DNA from: Halorubellus sp. JP-L1
GTDB taxonomy: Archaea > Halobacteriota > Halobacteria > Halobacteriales > Natrialbaceae
Direction: 5' to 3'
Length of the DNA: 64,000 bases
NCBI RefSeq assembly: GCF_011440375.1
Contig: NZ_JAAOIR010000004.1
Location: forward strand, 186,001-250,000
Of the stretch, positions 24,685-53,769 are shown piece after piece; positions within the stretch are counted from its first letter, which is position 1; each line of letters opens with the position of its first letter. The notes under the pieces are model-generated. The model was not told where the DNA came from. It ran no database searches and saw only the letters and a list, made by a program, of their open reading frames with translations. A program made the translations under genes and the position numbers.

Positions 24685-25221
24685 TTACTTCAGGTACTCG
24701 TACCCCCACTCGCGGAGGACGTCCGCGATCGCTTCGGGCTCGGCGGCCGCGACCATCGCCTCGCGAACGTCCAGCTTCTGGAGGTCCTTCTGTCGCATGT
24801 CGAGTTCGCCGGCGACTGCCTCGAGGATCTCGTCTTCCCGCGTGCTGTACTCTTCGCGGAGGAAGAACTGGTGGACGTTCTCGCGGTCCTCCTTCACGCG
24901 CGAGCGTCGGAGCACCCACGGGATGCCGTCGGCCTCGGCCTTCGACTGTTCGACGCCACTCGACGAACCCCCGGTATCGGCGCCGCTCGACGAACCCCCG
25001 GTATCGACGCCGCTCGCGGCCGCGTTTGAAGGACCCTCGTCACCGCTCGCCCCGGACAAATCCGTATAGCGCTCAGTGGTTGATGAACCCGATTCCTCGC
25101 TAGAATCCGCTTCGGACCCGTCTTCGACGCTCGACTCCGGGGGTTCGACCGTCGAATCGTCCGCGTCGCTCTCGTCCTCGTCCAGATCCGCGAACGGGTC
25201 GTCGCCACTTCCCTTCTTCAT
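24685..25221 (-). CDS. ParA-coupled acidic protein, candidate partition adaptor
   Basis: 178 residues. It starts inside the parA stop (ATGA overlap at 25218-25221), so it is translationally coupled to parA. The N-terminal ~95 residues are Asp/Glu/Ser/Gly-rich and disordered-looking, and include a duplicated 27-bp DNA segment (24959-24985 and 24986-25012) encoding SSSGADTGG-type repeats. The C-terminal ~80 residues (from GIPWVLRRSRVKEDRENVHQ to REWGYEYLK) are charged and helical and look folded. I know no functional assignment for this family. By analogy with parAB operons it could be the DNA-binding or ParA-activating partner. That is inference from position. Confidence 0.65.
   Translation of the reverse strand: MKKGSGDDPFADLDEDESDADDSTVEPPESSVEDGSEADSSEESGSSTTERYTDLSGASGDEGPSNAAASGVDTGGSSSGADTGGSSSGVEQSKAEADGIPWVLRRSRVKEDRENVHQFFLREEYSTREDEILEAVAGELDMRQKDLQKLDVREAMVAAAEPEAIADVLREWGYEYLK
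24959..25012. repeat. 27-bp direct repeat inside the ParA-partner gene
   Basis: Two adjacent copies starting CTCGACGAACCCCCGGTATC (24959 and 24986), nearly identical over 27 bp. Being a multiple of three, it duplicates nine residues of the acidic Ser/Gly linker without breaking the frame. Confidence 0.8.
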
Positions 25222-26090
25222 TGGAACTCGGCCTCCACGTGGCGCGCCAGGTCACGATACTGGTCGAGCGTGTCCTGCTCGCGGTCGTACCCGCGACGCC
25301 GACCCTTCTCTCCCTCCTTCCATCCCTCGTCGAGGACGCGGAACGCGGTCGCCTGGGACTCCCACATCTCCTGCATCAGACTCGACCGCTCGCCGAACAC
25401 TGCCGGGACGTCGAACGGCGACGCCTCCAGCTCCGCGAGGTGCTCCTTCTGCGTGTTCGTCGCCTTGTACGCCACCGGGACGATGCCGAGCACGCCGACG
25501 TCGATCCCGACTTCGGCCTCCAGCCCCTCGGCGAGGTCCGTGAGCCCGTCGATCGAGAGTGCGCCCTTCCCGGAGAGCTCCACGGGCAGGAGGACGCTCC
25601 GCGTCGCGAAGATAGCGTTGTACAGGGCGTCGCCCTCGGTCGCCTGCGGGTCGCAGATGACGACGTCGTACTCTTCGGGCACGTCGTTCTCCTTCAGCAA
25701 TCGGAGGAGCTGCTCGTTCCGCGGCCACTCGTAGTCGTCCTCGACGTGCATGTCCTCCTCGATCTCCGCGGCCTTCATCATGTTCTGCGTGAGGTTCGCG
25801 AGCATGTTGTGCGCGGGAAGGACGTCCACGCCCGCCTCGCCCGTATCGGTCCGAATGAGGTCCGTGAACTCGCCCTTTGGTCGTCCGATGAGGTGTCGGA
25901 CGATGTTGTCCGCGCTCCCGTCCGAGCGGTCGTCGGCCACGTCGAACACGTAACTCAGCGATCCCTCCTGGGGGTCGAGGTCCACCACGAGCACGCGCTG
26001 CCCGCGTTCGGCGTGCGCAGCCGCCAAATTCGCCGCCGTCGTCGTCTTCCCCACCCCACCGGCCTCGCTGTACGTCGTGTACGTAATCAT
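25218..26090 (-). CDS. parA: ParA/Soj-type partition ATPase
   Basis: 290 residues from ATG 26090. The deviant Walker A motif is SEAGGVGKTTTAANLA, with signature residues in AGGVGKTT (Lys15) near the N-terminus. VLVVDLDPQEGSLSYVF is the Walker A' region and YDVVICDPQATEGDALYN the Walker B region. The family uses ATP-dependent dimerisation and nonspecific DNA binding to move DNA or protein cargo. Absence of an N-terminal HTH makes it the short type, which normally relies on a partner to bind the centromere and repress the promoter. The coupled 178-residue gene and the 13-bp array directly upstream fit that scheme. The frame continues upstream to 26138, but the promoter box and conserved start favour 26090. 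Confidence 0.9.
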   Translation of the reverse strand: MITYTTYSEAGGVGKTTTAANLAAAHAERGQRVLVVDLDPQEGSLSYVFDVADDRSDGSADNIVRHLIGRPKGEFTDLIRTDTGEAGVDVLPAHNMLANLTQNMMKAAEIEEDMHVEDDYEWPRNEQLLRLLKENDVPEEYDVVICDPQATEGDALYNAIFATRSVLLPVELSGKGALSIDGLTDLAEGLEAEVGIDVGVLGIVPVAYKATNTQKEHLAELEASPFDVPAVFGERSSLMQEMWESQATAFRVLDEGWKEGEKGRRRGYDREQDTLDQYRDLARHVEAEFQ

Positions 26091-26113
26091 CTGGACTGTA
26101 CGTACTGACCCAT

Positions 26114-26124
26114 CCGTAATAAAA
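26114..26124 (-). promoter_or_regulatory. TATA box of parA
   Basis: On the minus strand TTTTATTACGG lies 24-34 bases before the parA ATG, indicating a leaderless transcript. The 13-bp array begins 3 bp further upstream, so any protein filling the array would touch the transcription factor B site. Confidence 0.6.
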
Positions 26125-26126
26125 CA

Positions 26127-26282
26127 CAGTCCATGCACACAGACGATCCAACCAGCAACAATACCCAGTCAACACCCCCAGTGTAGTTGCCCAGACACAC
26201 CACACAGCAACAACACGCAGTCAATATGGCCAGTAACACTGATCAGTGACACTGGACAGTAATACTCGGCAGTATTACTGAG
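26127..26282. repeat. Array of twelve 13-bp CAG-headed units upstream of parA
   Basis: Reading the plus strand in steps of 13 from 26127, every unit begins with CAG: starts at 26127, 26140, 26153, 26166, 26179, 26192, 26205, 26218, 26231, 26244, 26257 and 26270. Eight of the twelve begin CAGT. The last four are closest to one another (consensus CAGTAAYACTG plus two bases). Units 2-5 and 6-9 are two copies of a 52-bp block. Weak in-phase continuation is seen to the right (CAA 26283, CAG 26296, CAA 26309, CAG 26361). The period is not a multiple of three and no reading frame makes sense, so this is a DNA-level signal. Iterated sites beside a parA promoter are known as centromere/operator arrays in plasmid partition systems; that role here is inferred. 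Confidence 0.9.
26257..26280. repeat. Perfect palindrome inside the parA array
   Basis: Arms CAGTAATACT (26257-26266) and AGTATTACTG (26271-26280) are exact reverse complements around CGGC. The palindrome spans array units 11 and 12. Confidence 0.9.
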
Positions 26283-26887
26283 CAAGAATGTTGAGCAGGC
26301 AGCCTGTGCAACCCATTTGATTGGACGAACTGGCCGGAGAGTGTACGTGGTGCGACTGGGCAGTCCGAGTGGCCACGATAGCTGCGTGGTGAAGATGTCG
26401 AGGAGAACAGTGCGGGCAGTGTTCGACAGCAGAGTGAACAATCTGAATGAAGGGTGCCGCTGGTCGGTCGGATCGAAGAGGTGTACGGACGCGCACTCCT
26501 GACAAGTGCAGCTGGTCGCTCTGTCTGGACGACATGGCTGGCCGGGGTGCCGGCCAAGTACGACTGGGGAGGGTCACGTTCCCGTGGACCCGAGTAGCGA
26601 GACCGACCGCACGCAAATGGGGCTCGGCAGCAAGCGTTCGACGTCTTATGGTCCGGCACGATGCAGGCCGGTGGGCGGGTTGGATGCTTGGAACACGAAC
26701 GATCGCGACGAGTGACGGCCTGTCGGAAGATCGTTGACGCGTCCAGTGTCGAGGTCACGAGGCAAGGGGAGATACCAACGACCGTCGGTTCGAAGACACA
26801 CACTCATCGACTGATGGAGTAAACGGCATTCCGATATACAATTCGTCTGGGGAGCGGGTCGCTGGGAGCGGCGAATCGATCGATCGG
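26283..26887. other. Noncoding region upstream of the parA array, 605 bp
   Basis: Open frames here (for example the minus-strand one across 26243-26803) are rich in Cys, Ser, Arg and His and are not protein-like for a halophile. Base composition is less GC-rich than the surroundings near the array. I do not see origin-recognition boxes or a Cdc6/Orc1 gene. Apart from decaying in-phase 13-bp units up to about 26374 I see no structure. Confidence 0.5.
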
Positions 26888-32529: not shown

Positions 32530-32661
32530 GCAGTCGATTCAGTCCACGGTGACGGTTTCGAATCGCGACACAGTGAGCAGTCGATTCAGTCCACGGTGAC
32601 GGTTTCGAATCGCGACACAGTGAGCAGTCGGTTCAGTCCACGGTGACGGTATCGAATCGAC
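32530..32661. repeat. 47-bp tandem repeat copying a gene's 3' end
   Basis: Copies start at 32530, 32577 and 32624 (exact 47-bp spacing). The first two are identical; the third is the true end of the ABC permease gene (stop at 32633) and is partial. Each copy contains TCAGTCCACGGTGACGGT, i.e. the stop codon and last residues (TVTVD) read on the minus strand. The block lies between two convergent genes, so it could also influence termination or antisense transcription. Confidence 0.9.
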
Positions 32662-51477: not shown

Positions 51478-53769
51478 ATGACGAGCGAGGACGACGGGAC
51501 ACCCCATCTCCTCCTGCTCGCGCACGACGGCGAGATGGCAAAGGAAGACGTCGCCGTCCTGGAAGCCGCAGGTGCATCCGCCGAAGTACGCACGGTCGAG
51601 GACGGGCGGGTGCCGGCCGCCGCGGCCACAGCGGCGTCCTGCGTCGTCTGCCCGTACGACCTGGGGGACGCGTCGGGCGTGGAGGTACTCCGGTCGCTCC
51701 GCGAGCACGCGGAGCGAGTGCCGTTCGTGCTGTACGCCCGCGACGGCGACGAGGCAGTCGCGACCGAGGCGTTTCGTGCGGGCGTGACGGACTACGTGCC
51801 GGTCGAGGACGGCGTGACGCCGACGGTCGCCGAACGGGCTGTCGCGGCGGTCGATGCCGAATCAGGCGCCGAACGCCCAGGGCGCGATGGCTCGGTCGCG
51901 GACGATCGCCGGGCGGTCGAGGACCGCGAGCGCGCGCTCCGGCGGGCGTACGAGGTGGTCGCCGACGGCTCGCTGTCGTTCGACGAACGCATCGAGGACC
52001 TCCTGGGGATCGTCCGCGAGGCGGTCGGGACGTCGTACGCGACGCTATCGTACGTCGAGGACGACGACTACACGTTCGAGGTCGTCGACGCGCCCGGACA
52101 GGACGACGTCGCCGCGGGCGACGTGACGTCGCTGTCGACGACGAACTGCGAGCGCGTGGTATCGACCCAGCAGACGCTCGTCCTCGAAGACATTGAGCGC
52201 GACGCGCCCGATCTCGCGGAGCGCGCCGGGAACGCGGACCGGGGGATCTCGTGCTATCTGGGGGCGCCCGTGACGGTGGACGGGGAGCCGTACGGGACGT
52301 TCTGCTTCTACGGCATGGAACCGCGCCGGGAGGCGTTCTCGGAGTGGCAGGTGACGTTCGTCGACCTGTTCAGCGACTGGGTGAGTCGAGAGCTGGAGCG
52401 CGAGCGCTACGTCGACCGGCTGCGGGCGTTGAACGACCTGCATTCGGTGGTGCGGACGTTGACGGACGCGGTCCTGCATCGCGAGGACGGCACGCGACTG
52501 GAGCAGACGGCGGTCGACCGACTGGTGCGCACCGACTCGTACGCGCTCGCGTGGGTGGACGCACCGGTCGACGACGACGCGGACGCGACGTCGACGGTGG
52601 CTGCGGCGGGCGCGGACGCCAGCGAGCTCTCGGACGCGAACGCAGGAACGGGCGCGGACGCTCACGGCGATGCGGACGCACACGTCGATGCGGACGCTCA
52701 CGGCGATGCGGACGCACACGGCGATGCGGACGCTCGCGGCGATGCGGACGCTCACGGCGATGCGGACGCTGACGTGGACGCGGCAGCGCACGTGAGCGAT
52801 CCGAGTCGGCGGGCGTTCCGCGAACGCGAGACTGTCGCGGTGGCCGTCCCGACCGACGGCGGTTCGGGCGGCGGCGGCGCTCGCGGGCGCGACCTCGCTG
52901 CGCGTGGCCTGGAGCGACGGGCGGCGGTCCCGGTCGCGTTCGAGGACGAGTCCTACGGCGTCCTGAACGTCGCGACGGCCCGCCGGGACGCGTTCGGGGA
53001 CCGCGAGCTCGCGGTGCTCGGGCAGGTCGGCGAGATCCTCGGCCTCACGATCGCGACCGTCGAGCGCGAGCGGTCGCTCGAAGCGGAACGCGAGCGACTG
53101 GAGTTCGTGAACCGCTTCGTCCGCCACAACCTCCTGAACGGCCTGAACGTCGTCGACGCTCGCGCGGAGATCCTCGAGTCGCACGTGGACGCGGACGGGC
53201 GCACGCACCTCGACACGGTCCGCGATCGGACGGCGGAGATGGTCGACCTCGTCGAGACGCTCCAGGCGCTCATGGAGGCGTTCGTCGCGAGCGAGTCCCG
53301 GCAGACCGAGCGCGTGGACGTTCGGTCGATCGTCGAGGCGGAGGTCGAGGAGGCGCGGGAGGCGTTCGAGCACGCGTCGTTCGAGCTGTCCGTGGATGCG
53401 GCGGCAGCGGCGGCGCCGGTGCGCGCGGACGCCCTGCTCGGGGAGGTGTTCGGGAACCTGCTCGCGAACGCCGTCCAGCACAATCCCGACCGGGCGCCGT
53501 CGGTGTCGGTCGACGTGGTCGCGAGCGCGACGTCGGTGACGGTGCGCGTGACCGACGACGGCCCGGGCATCCCCGAGGACGTCCTGCCGTCGATCTTCGA
53601 GACGGGCGAGCGCGGGTTCGACAGCCCCGGGACGGGGTTCGGGCTCTACCTCGTCCGCGAGATCGTGGACGCGTACGGCGGGAGCGTTGCGGTGACGAAC
53701 CACGACGACGGCGCGACGTTCGCGGTGACGCTCCCGCGAGCGGACGCCGAAGGGACGGGCAGCGAGTAG
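51478..53769 (+). CDS. GAF-containing sensor histidine kinase
   Basis: 763 residues from ATG 51478. Domains in order: a receiver-like N-terminus lacking clear phospho-acceptor features (about 8-125), a GAF domain (about 160-310; SYVEDDDYTFEVVDAPGQDD), a second GAF-like region (about 325-525) interrupted by a Ala/Asp/His/Gly repeat (about 393-430), an H-box RFVRHNLLNGLNVVDAR with phospho-acceptor His550, an N-box (NLLANAVQHNPDRAP), and ATP-lid DDGPGIPEDVLPSIFETGER / GTGFGLYLVREIVDAYGG. No transmembrane helix, so it senses a cytoplasmic signal. No cognate response regulator is adjacent. Confidence 0.88.
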   Translation: MTSEDDGTPHLLLLAHDGEMAKEDVAVLEAAGASAEVRTVEDGRVPAAAATAASCVVCPYDLGDASGVEVLRSLREHAERVPFVLYARDGDEAVATEAFRAGVTDYVPVEDGVTPTVAERAVAAVDAESGAERPGRDGSVADDRRAVEDRERALRRAYEVVADGSLSFDERIEDLLGIVREAVGTSYATLSYVEDDDYTFEVVDAPGQDDVAAGDVTSLSTTNCERVVSTQQTLVLEDIERDAPDLAERAGNADRGISCYLGAPVTVDGEPYGTFCFYGMEPRREAFSEWQVTFVDLFSDWVSRELERERYVDRLRALNDLHSVVRTLTDAVLHREDGTRLEQTAVDRLVRTDSYALAWVDAPVDDDADATSTVAAAGADASELSDANAGTGADAHGDADAHVDADAHGDADAHGDADARGDADAHGDADADVDAAAHVSDPSRRAFRERETVAVAVPTDGGSGGGGARGRDLAARGLERRAAVPVAFEDESYGVLNVATARRDAFGDRELAVLGQVGEILGLTIATVERERSLEAERERLEFVNRFVRHNLLNGLNVVDARAEILESHVDADGRTHLDTVRDRTAEMVDLVETLQALMEAFVASESRQTERVDVRSIVEAEVEEAREAFEHASFELSVDAAAAAAPVRADALLGEVFGNLLANAVQHNPDRAPSVSVDVVASATSVTVRVTDDGPGIPEDVLPSIFETGERGFDSPGTGFGLYLVREIVDAYGGSVAVTNHDDGATFAVTLPRADAEGTGSE
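52654..52779. repeat. 18-bp tandem repeat in the histidine-kinase gene
   Basis: Six full units starting at 52654, 52672, 52690, 52708, 52726 and 52744, each GCGGACGCTCACGGCGAT or one or two changes from it, plus a partial seventh. They encode ADAHGD hexapeptides in a loop of the second GAF-like region. The in-frame length allows expansion and contraction. Confidence 0.9.

Follow-up and report, generated by a model that had tools for sequence, protein, structure and literature searches.

A 13-bp repeat array upstream of parA is the hallmark of a widespread haloarchaeal ParA cassette

Bacterial partition loci of type Ib (parFGH of TP228 and delta-omega of pSM19035) pair a Walker ATPase with a small DNA-binding partner encoded downstream, and both they and the type II locus parMRC of R1 have iterated sites at the operon promoter. 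In all three systems the same DNA serves as operator and centromere. The haloarchaeal cassette described here resembles these loci, its partner's binding being inferred, and meets the type Ib criteria of a small overlapping gene after parA and of repeated sites within or beside the promoter of the operon. It differs from TP228, pSM19035, and R1 in its 13-bp dyads, lysine-less ParA, long acidic linker, and archaeal host, and in a partner without detectable relation to ParG, omega, ParR, or RHH_1.

Among archaea, SegAB of the Sulfolobales (PMC5120986, PMC12284271) likewise combines a ParA-type ATPase, an overlapping downstream partner, and palindromic 13-bp sites (TCTAGASTCTAGA) upstream of the operon. 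SegB sites, however, are single, lie dispersed at ~40 positions on the chromosome, and show good conservation across genera, whereas each haloarchaeal cassette has one tandem array whose motif differs from those of other cassettes; the SegAB criterion of chromosome-dispersed sites is failed. Direct-repeat arrays also lie upstream of the secondary-replicon parAB loci of Deinococcus radiodurans, where they help to maintain the secondary replicons of a multipartite genome (PMC7671480), but that system is bacterial and its partner is ParB-type by name. Halobacterium salinarum sojA, sojB, and sojE are likewise haloarchaeal ParA-family genes, sojA being plasmid encoded, and soj genes change expression upon deletion of the division regulator cdrS (PMC7439475), which might connect plasmid partition with cell division. 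Neither a partner nor repeats are described for the soj genes in the relevant sections of that paper, and the correspondence of the pNRC200 member of the present family (VNG_RS11715) to a particular soj gene is not established.

The cassette lies in a 64,000-nucleotide stretch of Halorubellus sp. JP-L1 DNA, referred to throughout as the window, with the following features.

24685 to 25221, minus strand: partner gene, 178 aa, with an N-terminal MKKGSGDDPFADLD motif, an acidic low-complexity linker, and a C-terminal domain of ~80 aa (IPWVLRRSRVKEDR...LREWGYEYLK)
25218 to 26090, minus strand: parA, 290 aa, ATG at 26090, a Walker-type ATPase of the ParA/Soj superfamily with SEAGGVGKT for KGGVGKT
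26091 to 26126, minus strand: parA core promoter and leader, with TATA-like TTTTATTA at 26117 to 26124 and a leader of <30 nt
26127 to 26282, plus strand: well-preserved array core of 12 units, each the dyad CAGTNNNACTG plus 2 bp
26283 to 26607, plus strand: degenerate continuation of the array, ~25 further units in unbroken 13-bp phase (match of 4.9 and 4.7 of 8 in phase versus at most 2.9 off phase)

From 26127 to 26282, all twelve successive 13-mers start with CAG and eight of the 12 with CAGT, exactly as a preliminary description had stated. The stretch that it listed, 26114 to 26282, needs correction at both ends: positions 26114 to 26126 are the TATA segment and not a unit, and the array continues in phase to ~26607, giving ~37 units over 481 bp in a single phase and without an indel, the first 12 being the best preserved. 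(A stricter extension rule, halting at the first weak block, yields 21 units.) Beyond 26282, the mean in-phase match to CAGTNNNACTG is 4.9/8 (26283 to 26400) and 4.7/8 (26400 to 26580), compared with 1.0 to 2.9/8 in the twelve other phases, and it drops to background past ~26607. In the 300 bp preceding parA, the lag-13 segment score reaches 28, against a maximum of 17 among 20,000 first-order Markov resamples, and none of 1,500 resamples reached 28 at any lag from 6 to 30. The claim that the last four core units (26231 to 26282) share CAGTAAYACTG held in part: it is exact only in the unit at 26231, those at 26244, 26257, and 26270 being CAGTGACACTG, CAGTAATACTC, and CAGTATTACTG, and the form common to all four is the dyad CAGTNNNACT(G). 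The claimed adjacency to the parA TATA box also held, at a measured distance of two bases between the minus-strand TATA-like element and the first unit rather than three, as did the ATGA coupling of parA to a 178-residue acidic partner.

The window and Halorubellus salinus share an identical 36-bp segment between TATA and ATG, while the array has diverged. Within the unit, positions 12 and 13 (T and G) are 92 to 93% kept between these two species, versus 47 to 49% for positions 1 to 10, a retention that would fit selected contact positions, although this possibility is inferred from sequence alone.

The window ParA meets the criterion of the ParA/MinD superfamily, a P-loop NTPase of the AAA_31/CbiA type (Pfam AAA_31, 2e-22; CbiA, 3e-15), and its closest solved relative in the PDB is Thermus Soj (1wcv, E = 4e-15). 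It fails the criterion of a deviant Walker A motif, the signature lysine of KGGVGKT, and is classed as a divergent ParA-like ATPase rather than a canonical ParA because this lysine is replaced by Ala or Ser (E-[A/S]-GG) in 101 of 101 relatives.

The partner family has a conserved N-terminal MKxG..DDPFA motif, a disordered acidic linker (Asp plus Glu ~34% on average), and a C-terminal domain in which Pro, Arg, Arg, Asp, Glu, Ala, and Gly residues are invariant. Within the window gene, a 27-bp tandem repeat (24950 to 25016) corresponds to the repeated GGSSSG of the disordered linker. An automatic call placed this architecture downstream of parA in 96 of the 101 relatives, with ATGA in 76 of the 96, and three of the five missed loci (L130, L131, and L137) carry the partner on inspection; the remaining two are an artefact (L097) and a domain swap (L030). 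The L097 partner open reading frame ends in a SYTHXMCIRDR-like sequence beside an N, which resembles the sequencing-adapter artefacts of draft assemblies.

The partner had zero matches in Pfam, NCBIfam, PHROGs, or PDB sequences, including no Pfam match to the ParG, omega, or RHH families and no ParB or ParBc match under the ParABS criterion of a ParB N-domain/HTH, and a profile search of PDB entries returned nothing significant. Its assignment as a standard RHH protein was considered, the order having looked RHH-like, but gained no support, as hhalign with haloarchaeal RHH_1 scored below shuffled decoys; the fold is unresolved. AlphaFold models were weak, with a pLDDT of 50 for the window protein and 69.5 for a viral relative; they place a strand before helices, the viral one having a strand-like stretch and then helices at 28 to 45, 51 to 64, and 66 to 75, and fold comparison of these weak models gave no usable match to solved folds. 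An attempt to deepen the alignment for structure prediction with viral contigs was abandoned, having supplied merely three distinct relatives.

Relatives of the window ParA occur in 236 of 392 Halobacteriales genomes (E ≤ 1e-30), and in a phylum sample of 295 genomes (E ≤ 1e-35) all matches fell inside the order Halobacteriales. In PLSDB, the cassette ParA is found in 214 places on 184 plasmids, the listed matches being all haloarchaeal. Viral contigs carry the cassette too; an annotated phage collection contained no ParA relatives at E = 1e-10, and a ParA gene is annotated in halovirus ChaoS9 (PMC6471424).

The check proposed beforehand, whether arrays occur at orthologous parA loci, found them order-wide, with drifting motifs and constant 13-bp spacing. 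Identity at lag 13 upstream of parA averages 0.41 in 101 non-identical Halobacteriales relatives, compared with 0.27 at control genes (156 genes of the same regions; mean, 0.271). Over 74 non-identical loci, mean identity is 0.411 at lag 13, 0.401 at lag 26, and 0.361 at lag 39, versus ~0.25 at other lags; the best lag among 6 to 30 is 13 or 26 in 70 of the 74, and the periodicity is individually significant (P < 0.01) in 64. The loci tested are the best ParA matches, not a random sample, and are mutually related. By a conservative count, arrays of ~8 units are typical, and several loci have only 2 to 4 clear units (e.g., L026, L032, and L113). The array adjoins the parA promoter across relatives, since a TATA-like element lies 29 to 36 nt from the ATG in most of them. 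The 13-bp array upstream of parA is a family trait and the hallmark of this widespread haloarchaeal cassette, not a local oddity.

Of 101 cassettes, 59 have a separate GTCTGAC-type element immediately before the TATA box, whatever the array motif, compared with 3 of 101 for the −150 to −75 interval. It lies 42 to 45 nt before the ATG in, for example, L033, L097, L109, and L126, is absent from the window, and might be a shared regulator site or a BRE-like site.

Array units differ by clade (CAGTNNNACTG, TAGTNNNACTA, TGTTCA..., TCTTAGA..., TTGAACCA..., TATAGCTA..., and TTACAGA...), and the expectation of CAG-headed arrays proved too narrow, as CAG heads the units of some clades only. Units tend to be dyad symmetric, their median self reverse-complement similarity being 0.61 versus 0.35 between loci. 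Across 88 loci, motif similarity is associated with identity of the partner C-terminal domain (Spearman, 0.35; partial given ParA, 0.32) and not with ParA once the partner is removed (partial, 0.05), and among pairs with ParA identity below 65% the partial correlations are 0.22 for the partner C-terminal domain and −0.04 for ParA (Mantel P = 0.002). Kinship among the sequences means that such association tests overstate independence. That the motif follows the partner and not ParA is as predicted for a centromere-binding partner, and the partner is the likely reader of a cassette-specific repeat "address," no binding data being available. In the partner, motif type is most strongly associated with the variable residue of V[K/Q/T/N]xxR, which, with few independent changes, is a candidate specificity residue and no more.

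A natural swap occurs at L030, on Halobacterium noricense plasmid NZ_CP089470, where the ParA belongs to the same family and the partner retains MTGMKSGAGEDPW and has an unrelated C-terminal part; the upstream repeats there have a 6/12/18-bp period, and the 13-bp signal is absent. Although a single case, it gives further support to the repeat tracking the partner C-terminal domain and not ParA. This cassette is placed at the start of its record.

Genomes hold up to eight cassettes (G190), and one (G131) has four different units. Cassettes of the same genome have a mean motif similarity of 0.30, compared with 0.385 for ParA-matched pairs across genomes (P = 0.001), and none of 30 same-genome pairs exceeds 0.6, versus 9% expected. 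These differences are as predicted if identical centromeres exclude one another (incompatibility), although distinct autorepressors would give the same pattern.

The window cassette is on a 341-kb contig beside a full-length glmS, with a second glmS match (55% identical) on contig C1 and the closest orc1 ~102 kb away. The contig has core-type genes and may belong to the main chromosome or represent a second large replicon. Contig C3 carries another cassette, whose motif is different (L002). Cassette neighborhoods are not conserved outside Halorubellus, as expected of a mobile cassette, and synteny between the window and H. salinus is retained on the partner side only. Upstream of the array, H. 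salinus has a transposase-like open reading frame (L005, 2321 to 3997) in the place that coaD-like and phosphoribosyltransferase genes occupy in the window. Two generalizations were tried and rejected: a conserved chromosomal locus (synteny is one-sided and confined to Halorubellus, and relatives are in unrelated neighborhoods) and adjacency to orc1, which holds for some replicons only.

A dispersal test for two-unit sites matching at least 13 of 16 positions returned the parA locus only, plus scattered weak matches near control level. One cluster of three units of the array's 13-bp dyad, matching at 20 of 24 positions, is present on the cassette's own contig at a distance of ~120 kb (G000:C4:331656-331692; L178); no such cluster was found on contig C3, and there is no syntenic counterpart in the H. 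salinus stretches compared. It might be a satellite centromere site, again judging from sequence alone. A 22-bp dyad that had appeared confined to the parA contig in two species was rejected as evidence for satellite sites because the pattern was derived from its own hits and because one pair represents the same orthologous place, with an eroded core, spanning the stop codon of a neighboring gene. Other tandem repeats are a separate one of identical copies in 32-bp steps at G000:C4:101045-101132 (CAGTTGCGCGGTGCGGTCATACTG) and two in the window that are unrelated to the cassette, of 47 bp (32530 to 32659; 2.8 copies, 97% alike) and 18 bp (52654 to 52774; 6.7 copies).

The cassette is most likely a plasmid-type, three-part partition system in which the partner would bind the array and the array would act as both centromere and operator. 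The plasmid-partition-like organization proposed earlier (sites, promoter, ParA, and partner) is supported; its function stays inferred, as do DNA binding and dimerization by the partner, ATPase stimulation, segregation or movement, autorepression, and plasmid stabilization. Under this model, partner dimers would bind the 13-bp dyads through their C-terminal domain and line up next to one another along the array, each 13-bp unit adding a step of ~86 degrees of helical rotation. The resulting nucleoprotein complex would be the centromere and, because the array abuts the TATA box, would autorepress the parA-partner operon. The N-terminal MKxG..DDPF segment, borne on the acidic linker, is predicted to contact ParA-ATP on nucleoid DNA and trigger hydrolysis, upon which sister copies would move apart or be spaced by a ParA gradient. 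With its own repeat and partner specificity, each cassette could operate in a multireplicon, polyploid cell without cross-reaction.

The partition reading is favored by the one-to-one coupling of ParA and partner, by the order-wide arrays with their dyad-symmetric units, by the association of motif with partner C-terminal domain and the L030 swap, by the unlike motifs of cassettes in one genome, by carriage on plasmids and viral contigs, and by the retention of unit positions 12 and 13 between the two Halorubellus species. Against it stand the lack of binding, stability, or localization data and the unassigned DNA-binding domain of the partner; moreover, members with 2 to 4 clear units suit the needs of an operator as much as those of a centromere, haloarchaeal polyploidy makes active partition not obviously necessary, and ParA lacks the signature lysine of classical ParA.

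The alternative that survives best, though unlikely, is that the array is an operator only, with the partner a self-repressing transcription factor and ParA moving other cargo or the centromere lying elsewhere. The array does adjoin the TATA box at nearly all loci, and several members have few clear units, but ~37 in-phase units over 481 bp far exceed the needs of repression, ~8 are typical even by the conservative count, and the cassette is carried on 184 plasmids. The two roles are in any case not exclusive, because R1, TP228, and pSM19035 combine both.

There is very little support for ParA and its partner positioning protein or membrane cargo in a MinD- or McdAB-like manner. Haloarchaeal ParA/MinD proteins do act in positioning archaella and other polar structures (PMC11588486), and core-type genes surround the window copy, but an iterated DNA site is tied to the operon order-wide, plasmids and viruses carry the cassette, and no conserved cargo gene adjoins it. 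Also very improbable is that the repeats are replication iterons (origin recognition boxes) lying incidentally before parA. Plasmid origins commonly have iterons, and orc1 is 2 to 3 kb from parA in some replicons (G116, G045, and G022); however, the closest orc1 is ~102 kb off in the window genome and tens of kilobases in most others, the repeats everywhere adjoin the parA promoter and not orc1, and the motif tracks the ParA partner. A functionless low-complexity or chance repeat, for which only the degeneracy of individual units speaks, is virtually ruled out by the score reached in 0 of 20,000 resamples, by the cross-genome test, in which unrelated motifs kept the same spacing throughout the order, and by the selective retention of unit positions 12 and 13 between species.

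A bolder version of the partition reading, which we consider as apt to fail as to hold, is that of a haloarchaea-wide partition class separate from ParABS, ParFG, and SegAB. In such a class, a lysine-less ParA-like ATPase would work with a new modular adaptor family, and diversified 13-bp centromere codes would allow as many as eight segregation lanes that exclude one another (incompatibility groups) in one polyploid cell. Homology of the partner to SegB has not been directly compared. Conceivably, the lysine of the adaptor's invariant MKxG segment replaces in trans the one missing from ParA.

The earlier remark that neither the array motif nor the partner family was recognized as described held as far as open literature and databases show: the open-access literature searched contains no description of the cassette, although many subscription papers were outside its scope and absence is not proof. 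The closest described arrangements are SegAB, the type Ib loci, and the repeat arrays of Deinococcus secondary replicons. Probably new are the adaptor family, the signature of the ParA, and a centromere code particular to each cassette, the way of working being that of known partition loci. The inheritance of a polyploid chromosome and several megaplasmids in haloarchaea is counted among the open questions (PMC5120986), and the relevant sections of a 2024 review on the archaeal cell cycle mention no segregation system for haloarchaea (PMC7617429). The cassette supplies named genes and DNA sites in hosts that are amenable to experiment, namely Haloferax mediterranei (pHME132; partner gene, E6P09_RS18870), Haloarcula hispanica (pHH400), and Halobacterium NRC-1 (pNRC200). 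In all of these the partner carries no annotation beyond hypothetical protein, and through the cassette haloarchaeal DNA inheritance becomes directly testable. It is also likely to offer a typing scheme for haloarchaeal plasmid incompatibility and may provide archaeal genetics with a set of DNA tags that do not cross-react.
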